Shown piece after piece: positions 453 to 8,977 of a stretch of 64,000 nt of DNA (positions within the stretch are counted from its first letter, which is position 1; the number at the start of each line of letters is the position of its first letter). Location of the stretch: contig JACRMQ010000006.1 of assembly GCA_016214905.1 (NCBI GenBank), forward strand, positions 478,510 to 542,509. The letters are read 5' to 3'. A model generated the notes under the pieces. It was not told where the DNA came from, did no database searches, and saw nothing but the letters and a program-made list of their open reading frames with translations. Made by a program: the position numbers and the translations under genes. The DNA is from Ignavibacteriales bacterium. Its GTDB lineage: Bacteria; Bacteroidota; Ignavibacteria; UBA10030; SZUA-254.

Positions 453-2366
453 ATGCATAAATTTATATTTAAACCATTTGATGAGATGACTGAAAAAGAT
501 TACGCCACGGTCGGATTCAAATCGGGTTTGGAAATTCATCAACAACTCTTAACCGAGAAGAAACTATTTTGCCGCTGTCCTGCCGGTCGGTACAGCGATA
601 AGTATGATGCTGAAATTCTTCGCCATATGCGTCCGACGTTATCGGAACTTGGCGAGTATGACGGCACAGCATTGATGGAATTCAAAACGAAAAAAGAAAT
701 TATTTACCGCATCAAACGCGAAACAGTTTGCACATACGAGATGGATGATACACCTCCATTTCAAATTGATGATCACGCGCTTGATAGTGCACTTGCCATC
801 GGTATGCTCTACGGATGCACAATGGTGGACGAGGTTCACATCGCGAGGAAGCAATATTTGGATGGAAGTATCCCGACAGGATTTCAGCGGACAGCGATTG
901 TGGGCGTAGATGGGAAAATCCCTTACAAAAATCGGGAAATAAAAATTATACAACTATCGATTGAAGAGGATGCTTGCCGTGAAGTCAGCGACATCGGACA
1001 TCGCAGAGTTTATATAACAGATCGATTAGGTATGCCGTTGATAGAAACAGTCACCGGTCCTGATATGCGCACACCGGTTGAAGTTGCCGAAGTGGCACAG
1101 ATATGCAGACGCTTGGTCAGAAGCACCGGAAGAGTCCGCACAGGTATTGGTGCCGGCAGGGAAGATGTTAACGTGAGTGTTACAGGAGGAACACGAATTG
1201 AAATAAAAGGCGTACCTCGAATCGTTAGTATACCGCTTTTAACTTACAACGAAGCGATGCGGCAATGGAATCTTTTACGACTGCGCGAAGAACTTAAACG
1301 CCGTGGCATCACGGAAAAATCTTTCAAATCGAAGACCGAGAATGTTACCAAAATTCTCAGCAAGACCCGATACCAGCCGATACAAAACGCAATTGAACAG
1401 GGAATGAAAATAAATTGTGTGCTTCTGCAGGGATACAAAGGATTATTGAGATGGCAAACTCAGACCGACACATATTTCTCGCGTGAGATATCTGATCGAG
1501 TTCGCGTTGTTGCATGCCTTACAACTTTGCCGAATATAATTCATTCGGATAGTTCCGGAGACACAATCGCCGCATCTGAATGGCAAAATATTAAAAAACA
1601 GATTGGCGGTAAAGACGATGATACTTTAGTATTAGTTTGGGGTGATGAGCAAGATGCAAATACAGGCGCGCAGGAAATAGTAATCCGCGCGAGAGAAGCG
1701 ACAATCGGAATTCCATCCGAAACGCGTCAAGCTTTGAGAGACGGGACAAATGGATTTGAAAGAATACTCCCCGGTCCGGACAGAATGTACCCCGACACAG
1801 ATTTACCTCCCAAACGGATTGAGGATGAAAGGTTGGATAAATTACGTCTCACTTTGCCGAATCGAATCTGGGAAAATGAAAAGTGGTATCGCAAATTGAA
1901 AATCCCTTCTGATGTCATTGAACCACTTGCAGCTTCTAAATACACAAAACTGTTTAAGATTACAGTCAAGGATTTGAAGTTGAATCCGACTTTAGTTGCT
2001 GTTGCATTAATTCAATATCAGAAACGTTTGAAAACATATTTCCCCAAAGCGAAACAAATAGAGATAGAAGCGTTTGAAGAAATATTTGAGGCATTTAAAT
2101 CCGGCATAGTTACCAGAGAAGGAATCTTCTTAGCGATGAAGAGTTTCTTAGAGAATGGTAAATTGCGATTCCAAAAGAAAATCAAATCGACTGAACTGAC
2201 GAAGATTATTAAAGATTCAAAAATAGCAATCAAAAAAATGAAAATTCAAAAAGATGAAAAGAAAACTGAAATATTAATCGGTTTGATAATGAATAAAGTA
2301 AGAGGCAAAGTTGACGGAAAACTTGTTGCGGAGAAAATCGGATTTTCGGGGAAGGGGAAAAACTAA
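453..2366 (+). CDS. gatE: Glu-tRNA(Gln) amidotransferase subunit E (archaeal type)
   Basis: GatE is the tRNA-binding and kinase/transamidase subunit that, with GatD, converts misacylated Glu-tRNA(Gln) to Gln-tRNA(Gln) in the cytoplasm. The 637-residue product has the GatB/E start motif FKSGLEIHQQL (about residues 22-32), LDGSIPTGFQRT, IEEDACREV, and the GatE-style GAGREDVNVSV near 235. A long insertion at about 280-400 fits the AspRS-like GAD domain that separates GatE from bacterial GatB, and the Lys-rich helical C-terminus fits the YqeY-like tail. Length matches archaeal GatE. The stop codon overlaps the gatD start by one base (taATG), so the two are co-translated. ATG 486 is an alternative start. 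GatDE is normally described as archaeal, so finding it in an otherwise bacterial window is unusual. Confidence 0.93.
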   Translation: MHKFIFKPFDEMTEKDYATVGFKSGLEIHQQLLTEKKLFCRCPAGRYSDKYDAEILRHMRPTLSELGEYDGTALMEFKTKKEIIYRIKRETVCTYEMDDTPPFQIDDHALDSALAIGMLYGCTMVDEVHIARKQYLDGSIPTGFQRTAIVGVDGKIPYKNREIKIIQLSIEEDACREVSDIGHRRVYITDRLGMPLIETVTGPDMRTPVEVAEVAQICRRLVRSTGRVRTGIGAGREDVNVSVTGGTRIEIKGVPRIVSIPLLTYNEAMRQWNLLRLREELKRRGITEKSFKSKTENVTKILSKTRYQPIQNAIEQGMKINCVLLQGYKGLLRWQTQTDTYFSREISDRVRVVACLTTLPNIIHSDSSGDTIAASEWQNIKKQIGGKDDDTLVLVWGDEQDANTGAQEIVIRAREATIGIPSETRQALRDGTNGFERILPGPDRMYPDTDLPPKRIEDERLDKLRLTLPNRIWENEKWYRKLKIPSDVIEPLAASKYTKLFKITVKDLKLNPTLVAVALIQYQKRLKTYFPKAKQIEIEAFEEIFEAFKSGIVTREGIFLAMKSFLENGKLRFQKKIKSTELTKIIKDSKIAIKKMKIQKDEKKTEILIGLIMNKVRGKVDGKLVAEKIGFSGKGKN

Positions 2367-3751
2367 TGGCAACGGATGAATATAAGGGTTATCGCGGTGA
2401 GGCATTATCAACGCTTAAAAATTTTAATGCGTTAGTATGGAGCGATGTAGAGATTAAAACAAGCAAAGGAAGTTATACCGGTATTATTCTTCCGCGTTCA
2501 GAGACTGCTGATCCTCTGCATGTTGTAATCAAATTGCGTTCGGGGTATAACATCGGGATTGCGGCAAATAAAATTCAGAATATAAAAATAGCGGGAAGGA
2601 AAGAGGCGCATTACAAAATTCCTGAGAAAGCATTTCCGTACGACCCTAAAAAACCTAATTTGAAATTACTTGGAACAGGTGGTACAATTGCAAGTCGTTT
2701 AGATTACCGAACAGGTGCGGTGATCCCGGCATTTTCTCCCGGTGAATTATATGGCTCCGTTCCGGAACTCGCCGATATTTGTAATCTCGAAACAGAAAAA
2801 CTTTATGGAGTCTTCAGCGAAAATATGGGACCCGAACAATGGAAAGGTACCGCTGAAGCTATAGGAAGAGAAATTGAAAAAGGAGTTCAGGGAATTGTCA
2901 TTGGGCATGGCACTGATACAATGCATCACACTGCCGCCATACTTTCATTCATGGTGCAGAATTCGCCTGTGCCGATTGTCATGGTTGGATCACAGAGGTC
3001 GAGCGATCGACCTTCTTCGGATGCAGCATTGAATCTTCAGCATAGCGTAAAGACAGCAGCCGAAAGTGATATCGCTGAAGTTATGGTTTGTATGTTCGGA
3101 CCAACCTCTGATACATATGGATTGCTTCATCGAGGAACACGTGTAAGAAAAATGCACTCAAGTTATCGCTCAACTTTCAGAACAATAGGCGACATACCGA
3201 TTGCGATGGTGAGCACCGAAAAGATTACACCGATACGGACGGATTATAAAAAACGAAGGAACGACAAGAATGCAGTGATCAATACTGCATTTGAAGAGAA
3301 AGTCAGCATCGTTTATTATTATCCAAATATGAAACCGGATATTATTGATTCGTTGATCGATAATGATTATAAAGGCATCGTTTTTGCCGGTACCGGGCTT
3401 GGACATGTCAACAAACCGCTTTATCCTGCTTTAAAACGTGCTAAAGAAAAAGGTATTGCTGTTTATATGACAGTGCAGACGTTGTGGGGATATGTTCAAA
3501 TGTATGTTTATGACACTGGGCGAGATATGATGGAGTTAGGCGTGATACCGGGTGAAAATATGTTGCCGGAGGTTGGGTATATGAAATTGGGTTGGGCGCT
3601 TGGGCAGACAAATGATTTGGAAAAAGTTAGAGAAATTATGATGACACCCATTGCTGGTGAGATCACAGAGCGCGAACCAAGTAACGGCTATCTGATTTTC
3701 CAGGGCGGCATACCGGAAGTCGAGGAGTTCATTTCGAAGTACAGGAAGTAA
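2366..3751 (+). CDS. gatD: Glu-tRNA(Gln) amidotransferase subunit D (archaeal type)
   Basis: GatD is the asparaginase-like glutaminase/asparaginase that supplies ammonia to GatE. The first ~95 residues form a small beta domain typical of GatD and absent from plain L-asparaginases. The asparaginase core then begins with LLGTGGTIASR (about 100-110, first catalytic Thr) and has VIGHGTDTMHHTA (about 180, second Thr plus Asp) and VGSQRSSDRPSSDA, the conserved third motif. Length, 461 residues, is slightly longer than usual for GatD. It starts within the gatE stop codon and ends 9 bases before the MFS gene, so the three may form one transcript. The N-terminal domain and the adjacent gatE rule out a simple asparaginase. 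Confidence 0.93.
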   Translation: MATDEYKGYRGEALSTLKNFNALVWSDVEIKTSKGSYTGIILPRSETADPLHVVIKLRSGYNIGIAANKIQNIKIAGRKEAHYKIPEKAFPYDPKKPNLKLLGTGGTIASRLDYRTGAVIPAFSPGELYGSVPELADICNLETEKLYGVFSENMGPEQWKGTAEAIGREIEKGVQGIVIGHGTDTMHHTAAILSFMVQNSPVPIVMVGSQRSSDRPSSDAALNLQHSVKTAAESDIAEVMVCMFGPTSDTYGLLHRGTRVRKMHSSYRSTFRTIGDIPIAMVSTEKITPIRTDYKKRRNDKNAVINTAFEEKVSIVYYYPNMKPDIIDSLIDNDYKGIVFAGTGLGHVNKPLYPALKRAKEKGIAVYMTVQTLWGYVQMYVYDTGRDMMELGVIPGENMLPEVGYMKLGWALGQTNDLEKVREIMMTPIAGEITEREPSNGYLIFQGGIPEVEEFISKYRK

Positions 3752-3760
3752 TCTTCAGAA

Positions 3761-4969
3761 ATGGATACGGTTGCTAAATCCAAGAAATATGAACAAGTAA
3801 GTAGCGCCGGTAAACGAAATGTAAAAGCACTTGGATTAGTAAGCATGTTCAACGACATCGCTTCCGAAATGGTGTATCCAATTATTCCGATTTTTCTCAC
3901 AACATTTCTTGGTGCACCCATTCCCATTGTTGGCGTTATTGAAGGGATCGCAGAAGCAACTGCCAGCATGCTGAAAGTATTCTCAGGTTGGCTCTCGGAT
4001 AGATTGCGTCATCGGAAATCTTTTGTAGCAGTGGGCTATACGCTCTCAGCTTTGGCAAAAATTGTTCTTTCCGTCGCCGCGTCATGGTTATATGTTCTCT
4101 TCGCGCGATTCATAGATCGATTTGGCAAAGGTATTCGCACATCTGCACGCGATGCGCTCATTGCAGATTCAGCTTCACCTGAAACACGCGGCGCAGCATT
4201 CGGTCTTCATCGTGCACTCGATACTGCGGGGGCGGTTGTAGGTCCGCTATTAGCGTTGGTACTTCTTCACTTTTTAGATAATAAATATTCGCTCATATTT
4301 TTTCTTGCCTCTATTCCTGCGTTTATTGGTGTAGGGATTTTGCTTTTGGTTGTAAAAGAACCTAAGCATGAAATCAAGAAATCAGAATTCAAATTGAAAT
4401 TCCCTCTGCGTTCATTCAGCAAACCGTATAAAATATTCCTTTTAGTGAACATTCTATTCGCACTCGGCAACAGCTCGGATGCTTTTTTAATTCTCAGAAC
4501 TCAATCGCTCGGCTATACTACGACCGGCGCGGTAGTACTTTACGTTGTATTCAACGCATTTTATTCATTGCTATCGTACCCATTCGGAAAGCTATCAGAT
4601 CGTTTTGGTGCACGACCAATTCTTATCGGTTCGTTTCTCTTATTCGCAATTGTTTATGCGGGTTTCGGAATCGCTAGTAATGGACTTATCCTCTGGATAT
4701 TATTCCCAATGTACGGATTGTATATGGCGATGAGCGAAGGCATCAGCAAAGCATATATCTCGAATCTTGTCCCAAGTGAAACACGCGCAACTGCAATTGG
4801 ACTTTTCTATACATCCACCGGTATAGTAACATTTTTCTCCAGCCTCATTGCAGGACTGCTTTGGAATTATGTTGGCGTCTCGACTCCATTTTATTTTGGA
4901 GCGGTTTGCTCAATACTTGCAATGATTCTGTTTCTAAACGATGCCTCTCTTAATAAATCCAAAGCTTAA
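3761..4969 (+). CDS. MFS transporter
   Basis: A 402-residue major facilitator superfamily permease with about 12 hydrophobic segments. Near the loop between TM2 and TM3 it carries GWLSDRLRHRKSF, a form of the MFS D-R-x-G/H-R-R/K motif, and the second half repeats it as GKLSDRFGARP. RFIDRFGKGIRTSARDALIADS is typical of a Bacteroidota MFS subgroup whose substrate is not known to me. It starts 9 bases after gatD, probably in the same transcript, but nothing ties its substrate to tRNA amidation. A glutamine or drug efflux role would be a guess. Confidence 0.85.
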   Translation: MDTVAKSKKYEQVSSAGKRNVKALGLVSMFNDIASEMVYPIIPIFLTTFLGAPIPIVGVIEGIAEATASMLKVFSGWLSDRLRHRKSFVAVGYTLSALAKIVLSVAASWLYVLFARFIDRFGKGIRTSARDALIADSASPETRGAAFGLHRALDTAGAVVGPLLALVLLHFLDNKYSLIFFLASIPAFIGVGILLLVVKEPKHEIKKSEFKLKFPLRSFSKPYKIFLLVNILFALGNSSDAFLILRTQSLGYTTTGAVVLYVVFNAFYSLLSYPFGKLSDRFGARPILIGSFLLFAIVYAGFGIASNGLILWILFPMYGLYMAMSEGISKAYISNLVPSETRATAIGLFYTSTGIVTFFSSLIAGLLWNYVGVSTPFYFGAVCSILAMILFLNDASLNKSKA

Positions 4970-5118
4970 TTGCATCCAACAAAATTCTTCTTTACATTTA
5001 ATCACACAGTCACTCCACAACCGGACAAATGTGACTGCATCAACTGCCTTACGCTCCCGGCGATTTGCGTTATTTAGGTGGAATGTTGTACCGATTTGTT
5101 GTTAAGGAAAGCCGAGTG

Positions 5119-6609
5119 ATGAAAGTTCTTTTCGTCTACCCTCGATATCCGGATACGTTCTGGAGTTTCAAGCACGCGTTAAAATTCATATCTAAAAAAG
5201 CCAGTCTTCCACCTTTAGGACTTCTAACTGTTGCCGCAATGCTTCCGAAAGATTGGGAGAAACGTTTAGTTGATTTAAACGTCGCAAACCTCGAGGATGA
5301 CGACATCCGGTGGGCAGATTATGTTTTTATAAGCGCCATGTCGATTCAAAGTGAATCTGTTAAGACAATTATCCAGCAATGTAAAAGACTTGGAACAAAG
5401 ATTGTCGCAGGTGGTCCGCTTTTCACTGCACAACACGATGAGTTTACCGATGTAGATCATTTTGTGCTAAACGAATCGGAAATTACGCTGCCATTGTTTT
5501 TAGAAGATTTGAAAAACGGAATTACCAACCATGTCTATTCAACAGATAAGTGGGCAGATATCGATACAACGCCAACACCACTCTGGGAGTTAATTAATTT
5601 CAAGCACTACGCAACAATGAATTTGCAATATTCACGTGGCTGCCCATACGATTGCGATTTCTGTGATATAACTGTCCTTTATGGACACAAACCACGCACA
5701 AAAATAAAAAATCAGGTTATTGCGGAATTAGAAAGTCTTTACACATCGGGATGGCGGGGTCCTGTTTTTTTCGTCGATGATAATTTCATCGGCAATAAAG
5801 GAAAAGTTAAAAAAGAAATTCTTCCCGTCATAATTGAGTGGATGAATGAAAGGAAACATCCGTTTGTATTTCACACAGAAGCATCAATTAACATAGCTGA
5901 CGATGAAGAACTTATGAGTTTAATGGTTCAAGCCGGGTTTGATGCCGTGTTTATTGGAATTGAATCGCCCAACGAAGATAGTTTAGTTGAGTGCGGAAAG
6001 GTGACAAATAAAAATCGTGACATGATAGCGTCTGTCAAGAAGATTCAAAAGTTTGGACTGCAAGTTCAAGGCGGATTTATCGTAGGTTTTGATAGCGATC
6101 CTGCATCAATCTTCGAACGGCTTTCTGCGTTTATACAGGAAAGCGGTATTGCTACGGCAATGGTGGGCTTGCTGAATGCACCCAAAGGAACAAAGCTTTA
6201 CAAGCGGCTTCACAGTGAGGGGAGGTTACTGAAATCGTTTACAGGCGACAACACCGACTTTTCAATGAACTTTATACCTAAGATGAACCGTGAAGCGCTA
6301 ATCGATGGATATAAAAATATTCTTAAGAATATCTATTCACCAAAACAATATTACGCAAGGGTTAAAGAGTTCCTCAAGAATTATAAACAACCAAGCATGC
6401 GTAAATTTAACTTTAAGCTAAGTCGATTGATTGCGTTATACAAGTCGATACTATTGCTTGGTGTTATTGGAAAAGAACGCTATCAATACTGGAAACTTTT
6501 TATATGGACAGTAATCCGGCATCCACGGCTTTTTCCACTCGCTATTACACTTTCGATATATGGTTTCCACTTCAGGAGAGTATTCGAGCGAAACATAGCG
6601 AACCTATAA
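5119..6609 (+). CDS. B12-binding-domain radical SAM protein (DUF4070-type)
   Basis: The N-terminus (MKVLFVYPRYPDTF, then PPLGLLTVAAMLP) is a cobalamin-binding Rossmann domain. The radical SAM core has the 4Fe-4S motif CPYDCDFC (about residues 175-182) and FFVDDNFIGN, and the C-terminal third fits the DUF4070 region of methylases and cyclases such as HpnR-type enzymes. Family members use SAM and cobalamin to modify unactivated carbons; the substrate here is unknown. The frame is open from 5065 with earlier ATGs (5065, 5083), but ATG 5119 is preferred because AAGGAA lies 9 bases upstream and the protein then starts at the B12 domain. Hydrophobic stretches near the C-terminus suggest membrane association, compatible with a lipid substrate. 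It appears monocistronic. Confidence 0.82.
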   Translation: MKVLFVYPRYPDTFWSFKHALKFISKKASLPPLGLLTVAAMLPKDWEKRLVDLNVANLEDDDIRWADYVFISAMSIQSESVKTIIQQCKRLGTKIVAGGPLFTAQHDEFTDVDHFVLNESEITLPLFLEDLKNGITNHVYSTDKWADIDTTPTPLWELINFKHYATMNLQYSRGCPYDCDFCDITVLYGHKPRTKIKNQVIAELESLYTSGWRGPVFFVDDNFIGNKGKVKKEILPVIIEWMNERKHPFVFHTEASINIADDEELMSLMVQAGFDAVFIGIESPNEDSLVECGKVTNKNRDMIASVKKIQKFGLQVQGGFIVGFDSDPASIFERLSAFIQESGIATAMVGLLNAPKGTKLYKRLHSEGRLLKSFTGDNTDFSMNFIPKMNREALIDGYKNILKNIYSPKQYYARVKEFLKNYKQPSMRKFNFKLSRLIALYKSILLLGVIGKERYQYWKLFIWTVIRHPRLFPLAITLSIYGFHFRRVFERNIANL

Positions 6610-6623
6610 GCGGTTTCATTCCA

Positions 6624-6651
6624 GAGATGCTGAGTCTATCTCAGTGATCTC
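6624..6651. terminator. Candidate bidirectional terminator hairpin
   Basis: GAGAT...CTGAG pairs with CTCAG...ATCTC (one small internal loop, 5-base apical loop TCTAT) between the convergent radical SAM gene and the Spy-like gene. The T-rich sequence after it (6660-6669) is interrupted, so the call is moderate. Confidence 0.4.
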
Positions 6652-6668
6652 TACGTCGGTTGTTTTTG

Positions 6669-7040
6669 TTACTCCTTAAATTTTCTTCCCTCGCTTCTGC
6701 TTCGCCTCTTATTCATTTGCTCTTTCTTGAAAGATTCATACTTTTTTAATTGTTCGGGAGTGAGAAGTGGTTCAATCTCTTTATCAATCGCTTTCATTTG
6801 AATCCGTTCATTTTTCATCATCTCTCTTTTATTCAACGGTTTCGTTGATTGTCCTTGAGTAAATGTCTTTTCGTTGCGTTTCATGATTTCAGAAATTTTC
6901 GCAGCTTGCTCATCAGTGAGTTTCAATGCTTCTTTCAGTCTTTGGACTCTATTTTCAGTACGTGATTGATCCTGAGAATTTATTATACCCGTAAATCCGA
7001 AAAAGAGTAATACGAGGAGGAGGGATTTATATATGTTCAT
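6669..7040 (-). CDS. Small secreted Spy/LTXXQ-like protein
   Basis: A 123-residue protein with a signal peptide (MNIYKSLLLVLLFFGFTGIINS-) followed by a charged helical region with two family hallmarks: LKLTDEQAAKI and LLTPEQLKKYESFK, as in Spy/CpxP periplasmic helical proteins and their Bacteroidota relatives. Such proteins act as envelope chaperones or stress/metal sensors, so a periplasmic role is likely, but the exact function is unknown. The longer frame starts at 7145; ATG 7040 is chosen because AAAGGA lies just upstream and the signal peptide begins there. A palindrome GTCAA-ATA-TTGAC at 7119-7131 lies in its promoter region. A decayed copy of this gene is present at 13006-13274 on the same strand. 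Confidence 0.72.
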   Translation of the reverse strand: MNIYKSLLLVLLFFGFTGIINSQDQSRTENRVQRLKEALKLTDEQAAKISEIMKRNEKTFTQGQSTKPLNKREMMKNERIQMKAIDKEIEPLLTPEQLKKYESFKKEQMNKRRSRSEGRKFKE

Positions 7041-7323
7041 CTTTCGTTCCTTTTTAAAATATGTTAATCTATATTCAAAATCTAAGAGTAATGAAATATA
7101 AGATAGGTTTATGTCGAAGTCAAATATTGACATTTGTTTAAACATTTACTGACGTAGTCCACCAGTTAGAAAGTAAAACGTAAACCTTCGAACGCTAGAG
7201 CTAGCCACTATGGTGCAGTCTAATTCAACTGTAAATAAAAATTCTCTTGGTAACAAGATAAAATATTATTATTTTAAATATCATTTATTTGTCATCAAAT
7301 AATATTTTATAAGGTATCATCAG

Positions 7324-8922
7324 ATGAAACGTTCTTTGTTATTAGTTCTTTTTTGTTTCGGGATTTCTTATTCACAAGTCGCTCAAAGGGATAATCTTGT
7401 ATATCCATCCGATCCCACGGAGGGGGTGATTGATTCTACTTTCGGGACTAACGGATTTGTACGAACAGATTTTTCAACTTCAAGCGATCATGCGTACGGT
7501 GTTGCAATTCAACCAGATCAGAAAATTGTGGCTGTTGGATCGGCAAATAGTATGTTCGCACTGGCAAGATACAATCCTAACGGTACTCTGGATTCTACGT
7601 TCGGATTAAACGGTAAAGTGGTAACCGACAATTACGGTTATTCTTTTGCTTGGTCAGTAGCAATCCAGTCAGACCGGAAAATTGTTGCGGCTGGCTCACT
7701 TACAAGTCCATATATGTTCATGATTGGAAGATACGATACAACCGGCAATTTAGATCCGACTTTTGGTAATGGAGGACTCAAGGCAATTCCCATTCCGATA
7801 GGAAGCGGAAATCAACGTTGTTATGCAATGGCATTGCAGCCGGATGGTAAGATTCTATTAGCAGGCTACATCAATGGAGTCAGCAATGAAGATATTGCAT
7901 TACTTAGATTAAAAACGAATGGCACACTTGATTCTACATTTGGTGCGCTTGGAATAGTAGTTACCGATGTAGGTGGTGGAAACGACGAAGCTCAGTCGGT
8001 TAAAGTACAATCAGATGGAAAAATTCTCGTAGCGGGTAGTTTTTATCTTAATAGCCATTCTGAATTTGGGGTTGTTCGTTATAATACAAATGGTACAGTC
8101 GATTCAACCTTTAACGGAACCGGAAGGGCAGGAGTGACATTCCCGGGTTCTCAGGTAGATAAAGCATATGCGATGGCGATCGATTCGGTCGGAAGAATAT
8201 TGCTCGTTGGTGATACTTATGGTGGAGGTAGAGATTTCTTTGCCTTCGCGCGATTTCTGCCGTCAGGATTGATTGATTCATCTTTCGCTAAGTTTGGTTC
8301 ACGAAAAGATACAATTCAGAACCTTTACGATATAGCTTATTCCGTCGCGTTGCAGAAAGATAATAAAATTGTTGTCTCAGGTGTGACTCAGAACGGTGGT
8401 GGTGAACAGAATATTGTTGTCGCACGATATTTGGAGAATGGATTGGAAGATACATCATTCAATCGCTCCGGAGGTACTATGACGGATATGGGTGGATTTT
8501 TTGAAGAAGGTTTTGGAGTGGCAATACAGGAAAATGGAAGCATAGTAGTTGCCGGTGAAACACTTACACCAAGCAACAGTTACGATTTTGCGTTGTTACG
8601 CTATCATGGTACAACAGGTCCGTTGACAGATGTGGAAACAAATGATCGGAATATTCCAAACGGGTACTTGCTTTCTCAAAATTATCCAAATCCGTTTAAC
8701 CCTACAACATTAATAAAGTATGAAGTTCCGGAAGAATCGTTTGTAACTCTAAAAGTATTTAATCTGCTCGGGCAAGAAATTATAACGCTCGTAGATGATA
8801 AACGAGAAGCTGGAACATACGAAGTGCGTTTAGATGGTACTCATTTATCGAGTGGAATTTATTTTTATCGACTACAAGCTGGTAGCTTTGTAGAAACAAA
8901 GAAATTGATATTGATGAAGTAA
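7324..8922 (+). CDS. T9SS-secreted delta-60 repeat beta-propeller protein
   Basis: A 532-residue exported protein: signal peptide at 1-20, then about seven delta-60 repeats ending in motifs such as GTLDSTFG, GNLDPTFG, GTVDSTFN and GLEDTSFN, expected to fold as a beta-propeller. From about residue 448 there is a type IX secretion C-terminal sorting domain with NYPNPFNPTT, VFNLLGQE and GTYEVRLDGTHLSSGIYFY. The protein is therefore probably exported through the outer membrane and attached to the surface or released. The ligand is unknown. A strong terminator follows at 8947. The next gene is another T9SS cargo with nearly the same terminator, and the pair is bracketed by an intact and a broken copy of the Spy-like gene. 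Confidence 0.88.
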   Translation: MKRSLLLVLFCFGISYSQVAQRDNLVYPSDPTEGVIDSTFGTNGFVRTDFSTSSDHAYGVAIQPDQKIVAVGSANSMFALARYNPNGTLDSTFGLNGKVVTDNYGYSFAWSVAIQSDRKIVAAGSLTSPYMFMIGRYDTTGNLDPTFGNGGLKAIPIPIGSGNQRCYAMALQPDGKILLAGYINGVSNEDIALLRLKTNGTLDSTFGALGIVVTDVGGGNDEAQSVKVQSDGKILVAGSFYLNSHSEFGVVRYNTNGTVDSTFNGTGRAGVTFPGSQVDKAYAMAIDSVGRILLVGDTYGGGRDFFAFARFLPSGLIDSSFAKFGSRKDTIQNLYDIAYSVALQKDNKIVVSGVTQNGGGEQNIVVARYLENGLEDTSFNRSGGTMTDMGGFFEEGFGVAIQENGSIVVAGETLTPSNSYDFALLRYHGTTGPLTDVETNDRNIPNGYLLSQNYPNPFNPTTLIKYEVPEESFVTLKVFNLLGQEIITLVDDKREAGTYEVRLDGTHLSSGIYFYRLQAGSFVETKKLILMK

Positions 8923-8946
8923 ATATTTAATTGGGTTGATGCATAG

Positions 8947-8977
8947 ATGGAGTCCACAAAAAGTGGACTCCATTTTT
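8947..8977 (+). terminator. Rho-independent terminator after the delta-60 repeat gene
   Basis: A perfect 11-bp stem ATGGAGTCCAC / GTGGACTCCAT with a 5-A loop is followed by a T-run. A near-copy stands after the next gene at 12901-12930. Confidence 0.85.

Follow-up and report, generated by a model that had tools for sequence, protein, structure and literature searches.

A GatE-GatD tRNA amidotransferase of a bacterial clade, encoded together with glutaminyl-tRNA synthetase

The Glu-tRNA(Gln) amidotransferase GatDE, which converts tRNA-bound glutamate into glutamine, is described in textbooks as restricted to archaea, and GlnRS is considered to make it dispensable. In a 2022 review, it is stated that GatDE is now found in archaea only and that all archaea lack GlnRS, and the pairing of GatDE with tRNA-Gln is used to account for the absence of any GlnRS transfer into archaea (PMC9499178). 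In archaea, tRNA-Gln carries A1:U72 and A73, and their GatDE is described as reading A1:U72 and the D-loop (PMC9499178). Two other systems are related to GatDE. In GatCAB, the catalytic cradle of GatB is homologous to GatE, and both enzymes amidate misacylated tRNA, while type I L-asparaginase has the catalytic fold and residues of GatD. Bacteria with GlnRS, AsnRS and GatCAB, such as Deinococcus and Bdellovibrio, keep a tRNA amidotransferase beside both synthetases (PMC4206432). Their GatCAB serves tRNA-dependent asparagine synthesis, whereas the genes described here belong to a Glu-tRNA(Gln)-specific family. At the time of a 2014 paper, no bacterium was known to have both routes to Gln-tRNA, and our search of openly accessible journal papers found no report of a bacterial GatDE, although these genes have probably been named already by automated annotation.

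Here, we analysed a window (the whole stretch of 64,000 nucleotides, C6:478510-542509, free of N and contiguous) on a 793 kb contig of an Ignavibacteriales bacterium. As the preliminary description had stated, both subunits are complete and lie in the order gatE-gatD with overlapping stop and start; the overlap is one base (TGATG). The tmRNA that it listed is likewise present. The features are as follows, in window coordinates.

453..2366, + strand: gatE, Glu-tRNA(Gln) amidotransferase subunit E, 637 aa, with kinase/amidotransferase cradle, GAD insertion, and helical and tail domains
1380..1661 (479889-480170 on the contig), + strand: GAD-type insertion of GatE, a weak PF02938 match just under the cut-off
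2366..3751, + strand: gatD, asparaginase-like glutaminase subunit D, 461 aa, overlapping the gatE stop by 1 base
2441..2590, + strand: GatD_N domain (PF18195), residues 26-75 of GatD, which separates GatD from plain asparaginases
2684..2686, + strand: GatD Thr107, asparaginase-type active-site Thr in GTGGT, T in 71/71 bacterial GatD and both archaeal structures
2912..2917, + strand: GatD Thr183-Asp184, active-site pair in HGTDT, invariant
3149..3151, + strand: GatD Lys262, active-site Lys in VRKMH, invariant
3677..3748, + strand: C-terminal extension of bacterial GatD, about 24 residues (EPSNGYLIxQGGIPEVEEFISKYRK), conserved, missing in 1zq1 and 2d6f
3761..4969, + strand: MFS transporter gene, 9 bases 3' of gatD

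The MFS gene is possibly co-transcribed with gatE-gatD, but it is regarded as separate from the GatDE system, and among the loci compared it recurs as a neighbour of gatD only in a congener of the host (L007). At the left edge of the window, a gene for a HAL-like aromatic amino acid lyase extends into the window with its 3' part; a run of N interrupts this gene just upstream of position 1 (L134, about 6402-6510).

By gene identity, the pair is a genuine GatDE. GatE scored 532 bits against the NCBIfam equivalog NF003107 (cut-off 456) and 458 bits against TIGR00134 (cut-off 320), whereas all GatB models remained far under their cut-offs (116 bits versus 315 for the GatB equivalog). GatD exceeded both GatD models, reaching 519 bits against TIGR02153 (cut-off 324). 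When AlphaFold models were searched with Foldseek, archaeal GatDE (1zq1 and 2d6f) came top for both subunits and was also the best sequence match for both; pLDDT was 77 for the GatE model and 66 for the GatD model, whose confidence is modest and, in the C-terminal extension, low. Window GatE is 36% identical to P. abyssi GatE (34-36% for the other aligned bacterial rows), and GatD is 44-47% identical to archaeal GatD in the Foldseek alignments. The extra N-terminal domain that had been proposed for GatD was matched by PF18195, which precedes the asparaginase domains. The GAD-type insertion proposed for GatE is present and aligns with that of archaeal GatE, but its match to PF02938 fell 1 bit short (22.4 bits versus a cut-off of 23.4).

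Compared with the archaeal enzymes of Pyrococcus abyssi (1ZQ1) and Methanothermobacter thermautotrophicus (2D6F), the bacterial pair has both subunits, the same order of domains and the same catalytic residues, together with the GAD-type insertion that PF02938 matches weakly, at about 35% identity in GatE. It differs in its adjacent gatE-gatD operon, in a host that is a bacterium and has GlnRS and a tRNA-Gln of bacterial type, and in three features of the proteins: the GatD extension, a conserved bacteria-specific stretch in the GatE insert (RVRV.ACLTTLPNI.HSD), and an altered GatE tail from which the archaeal GMGAMG motif has been lost. Compared with GatCAB, the glutaminase subunit is asparaginase-like and not of the GatA type. 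Compared with type I L-asparaginase, GatD has the GatD_N domain, the gene pairing with GatE and the GatD equivalog score. The enzyme is of a known kind, and what is new is a bacterial clade with its own GatD extension, GatE insert and tail, in the company of GlnRS.

The active sites are intact. GatD Thr107, Thr183, Asp184 and Lys262 do not vary among 71 bacterial GatD and the two archaeal structures, and the GatE residues common to archaea and bacteria (GLE.H, EED, RQD/RED.N.S, E.KGV and the RMY..TD.P region) show no or almost no variation; every catalytic residue checked was kept in the GatE and GatD of the window. Strong purifying selection acts on both genes: measured against the copies nearest to those of the window, dN/dS was 0.06-0.07 for gatE and 0.02-0.03 for gatD. 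In two other genomes gatE looks disrupted: it is seemingly broken into two pieces in G375 (L211, G375:C87) and carries an in-frame TAA in G082 (G082:C87:3574-5436), which is consistent with occasional loss or assembly errors.

We then placed the pair among its relatives. The preliminary description had treated it as an archaeal-type pair out of place in a bacterial genome; instead, it lies deep in a broad bacterial clade of 70 rows and at least 80 loci, an outcome that the preliminary description itself had named as speaking against its reading. A scan of contigs from one genome per species, which used exact peptides of the query and so missed distant members, gave 101 relatives, and the best 80 of the 101 all carry a bacterial label (Ignavibacteria/Melioribacter/Kapaibacteria, KSB1, Aminicenantes, Marinimicrobia and others). 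These taxon names are those given to the MAGs, and a few of them must be erroneous: the GatDE of 'Desulfobulbaceae' L059 is almost identical to that of HGW-Ignavibacteriae-1, and the L059 bin is probably mislabelled. GatD was 79-97% identical to that of the window in nearly all full-length copies, across phyla, and GatE 59-94%. In the concatenated tree, all 70 bacterial rows stood together, apart from the two archaeal rows, with KSB1, Aminicenantes and Marinimicrobia rows among Ignavibacteria. In a GatE tree rooted with GatB, three archaeal lineages grouped (100/97) and did not mix with the bacterial rows (bacterial branch 84/90). An asparaginase-rooted GatD tree was set aside for its instability and long branches. 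On these trees, the GatDE of the window belongs to a broad bacterial clade separate from the few archaeal sequences sampled (three, from Thermococci, Methanobacteria and Halobacteria), and a donor among other archaea is conceivable. Among the PF02934 results for the 247 genomes sampled from the phylum, no GatE signature was found outside the class.

The preliminary description had asked whether the organism makes Gln-tRNA(Gln) with GatDE, GlnRS or GatCAB, and gene content gave the answer. The host has two tRNA-synt_1c genes, which are adjacent: a single-copy GluRS (TIGR00464, 556 bits) and a GlnRS (TIGR00440, 777 bits, cut-off 426). It also encodes AsnRS, a bacterial AspRS and LysRS. No GatB was found in the host genome, where GatE is the sole protein with a GatB_N domain. 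The gltX and glnS ORFs run into each other (G000:C4:117830-120954; L003, L004) and lie side by side in several relatives too. The two host tRNA-Gln genes (CTG and TTG), as read from targeted stretches, are ordinary bacterial ones with U1-A72 and G73. The A1:U72 read by archaeal GatDE is thus missing from both, which bears on substrate use and not on family membership; given U1-A72 in the host, substrate recognition by its GatDE must differ from the archaeal mode or rest on the D-loop. The GluRS position equivalent to T. thermophilus Arg358 was also considered as a specificity marker and was rejected: nearly every one of 43 GluRS has Arg there, obligate GatCAB users among them, and the position does not separate these from GlnRS users. 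As this residue is uninformative, the leaky GluRS is hypothetical.

The company of GlnRS is not peculiar to this host. In 50 GatDE-bearing genomes from the relatives scan, GlnRS was over the cut-off in 46, with fragments at contig ends in two more (G279 and G289), AsnRS in 47 and GatB in 24. A replacement of missing AsnRS by GatDE was rejected, since the host and 47 of these 50 genomes have AsnRS. Among 197 genomes of the class, tabulated by hand from per-genome rows and not independent of each other, GlnRS was present in 47/52 with GatE and 61/145 without it (Fisher p 4e-10, uncorrected for phylogeny). The frequency of GatE was 18/26 in genomes with GlnRS and no GatB, 29/82 with both, 4/83 with GatB and no GlnRS, and 1/6 with neither; among GlnRS-bearing genomes, GatE was commoner where GatB was missing (p 0.003, shared ancestry not fully corrected). 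At the family level, GatE occurred in 10/16 families with GlnRS and in 1/11 without (p 0.008). Within one family (f14), GlnRS was present in 7/7 members with GatE and 0/13 without, which perhaps reflects one or two events. GatDE as the sole route to Gln-tRNA was rejected as well, since it was seen in no genome at least 90% complete and the only candidate (G367) is 74% complete.

GatDE is also mobile among bacteria. The preliminary description had suggested lateral transfer; transfer from bacterium to bacterium, between families, is seen directly; an archaeal donor is hypothetical. A genome from another family of the order (G399; L006) has a GatE 94.2% and a GatD 96.7% identical to those of the window, whereas its GlnRS and GluRS are only 79.5% and 65.3% identical to the host's. 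Between the two genomes, synonymous sites are saturated in the synthetases and unsaturated in gatE and gatD. GatE was found in 1/5 sampled members of the window's own family, 1/4 of f44 and 12/12 of f45. From the G399 identities, the synonymous sites and the sparse presence in the window's own family, we conclude that GatDE moves between bacterial families.

Taken together, we lean towards a functional GatDE of a bacterial clade that is retained for an accessory or repair function alongside GlnRS. The presence of GlnRS in the same genome makes an accessory role the most likely one, and the distribution of GatDE, as judged from gene content, also speaks for an auxiliary role. Following the established chemistry of the family, GatD would free ammonia from glutamine or asparagine, and GatE would use ATP to phosphorylate the glutamate on Glu-tRNA(Gln) and then transfer the ammonia to give Gln-tRNA(Gln). 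If GluRS (or GlnRS) still makes some Glu-tRNA(Gln), its conversion by GatDE would prevent the mistranslation of Gln as Glu. GatCAB can clear Glu-tRNA(Gln) in GatCAB users; where GlnRS was gained and GatCAB lost, residual Glu-tRNA(Gln) would be toxic, and repair by GatDE may matter above all in such lineages. Against this reading stand the U1-A72 of both host tRNA-Gln, the uninformative GluRS residue and the fact that half of the GatDE-bearing genomes (24/50) keep GatB too. More tentatively, these may be the first known organisms with two routes to Gln-tRNA(Gln), the direct one by GlnRS and an indirect one by GatDE, in which GatDE repairs Glu-tRNA(Gln) and reads a bacterial U1-A72 tRNA-Gln. A bacterial clade with GatDE and GlnRS contradicts the archaea-only statement of the 2022 review and makes its second statement, on GlnRS and archaea, directly testable (PMC9499178). 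In the clade, nature provides a setting in which to ask what a cell would gain from a repair amidotransferase beside GlnRS.

Two other functional readings were weighed. An intact enzyme under strong purifying selection, retained with GlnRS across several phyla, would also fit an organism that makes Gln-tRNA(Gln) by two parallel routes, with GatDE as a full second route used under certain conditions (for example, with asparagine as amide donor when glutamine is scarce) rather than for clean-up. We regard this as rather unlikely, since it would require efficient charging of tRNA-Gln by GluRS, of which the present analysis gave no sign; in addition, GatDE is the only route in no genome of 90% completeness or more, and some relatives of the same family lost or never had it. 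Less probable still is a shift of substrate, in which bacterial GatDE would act on another misacylated tRNA or as a tRNA-independent glutaminase/asparaginase. GlnRS in 46/50 and AsnRS in 47/50 of the GatDE-bearing genomes leave no obvious need for Gln-tRNA synthesis, the host tRNA-Gln is without the archaeal A1:U72/A73, and bacterial GatD and GatE have their own C-terminal extension and a tail without GMGAMG. Nevertheless, both the amidotransferase residues of GatE and its pairing with GatD have been conserved, for which an asparaginase acting by itself would have no need, and the distribution tracks the tRNA-Gln enzymes GlnRS and GatCAB.

The remaining two explanations dispense with a function in the host. 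Patchy presence (1/5 in its own family, 1/4 in f44), the recent transfer between families and the damaged gatE of G375 and G082 could be those of a recently acquired selfish or near-neutral passenger, repeatedly transferred and lost. This is very improbable given dN/dS of 0.02-0.07, GatD identities of 79-97% across phyla and the carriage of GatDE by all 12 members of f45. An assembly chimera or archaeal contamination, for which the archaea-only reputation of the family is the sole argument, is refuted. The contig belongs to a bacterial assembly of 3.3 Mb that is 99.6% complete and 0.2% contaminated, and the G+C of 0.42, beside a window mean of 0.385 (sd 0.024), also counts against this explanation. 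The gatE-gatD-MFS order is not chimeric because an independent contig from the MAG of the congener L007 (GlnRS 92.6% and GluRS 90.1% identical to the host's) repeats it down to the MFS gene, and two of the bacterial loci, at least 80 in number, lie on chromosome records (CP054675 and CP053447). The contamination check and the proposal of a true GatDE in a bacterial genome both came out in favour of the preliminary description.

Several observations concern gene order. In loci with both genes, the two share a strand and gatE immediately precedes gatD, usually within 150 bases. In L031/L043, L040/L047 and L022/L029, inserted genes widen the gap; one insert, of about 3.2 kb, has a methylenetetrahydrofolate-reductase-like ORF, and the others have a BRO-N-like ORF or an ankyrin-like ORF (named by eye). 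The neighbours of gatDE vary between genera and suggest no partner. In G014 (L206, G014:C45:504000-517000, 3918-8961), glnS is convergent with, and at most 3 bases from, the gatD of a gatD-gatE pair; among the GatE-bearing genomes compared, glnS lies beside gatD in this one only. A scan of viral contigs gave no archaeal GatDE, and a scan of plasmids gave one haloarchaeal gatE copy, frameshifted and unannotated, on a megaplasmid of Natrinema thermotolerans (L145, CP031304.1).
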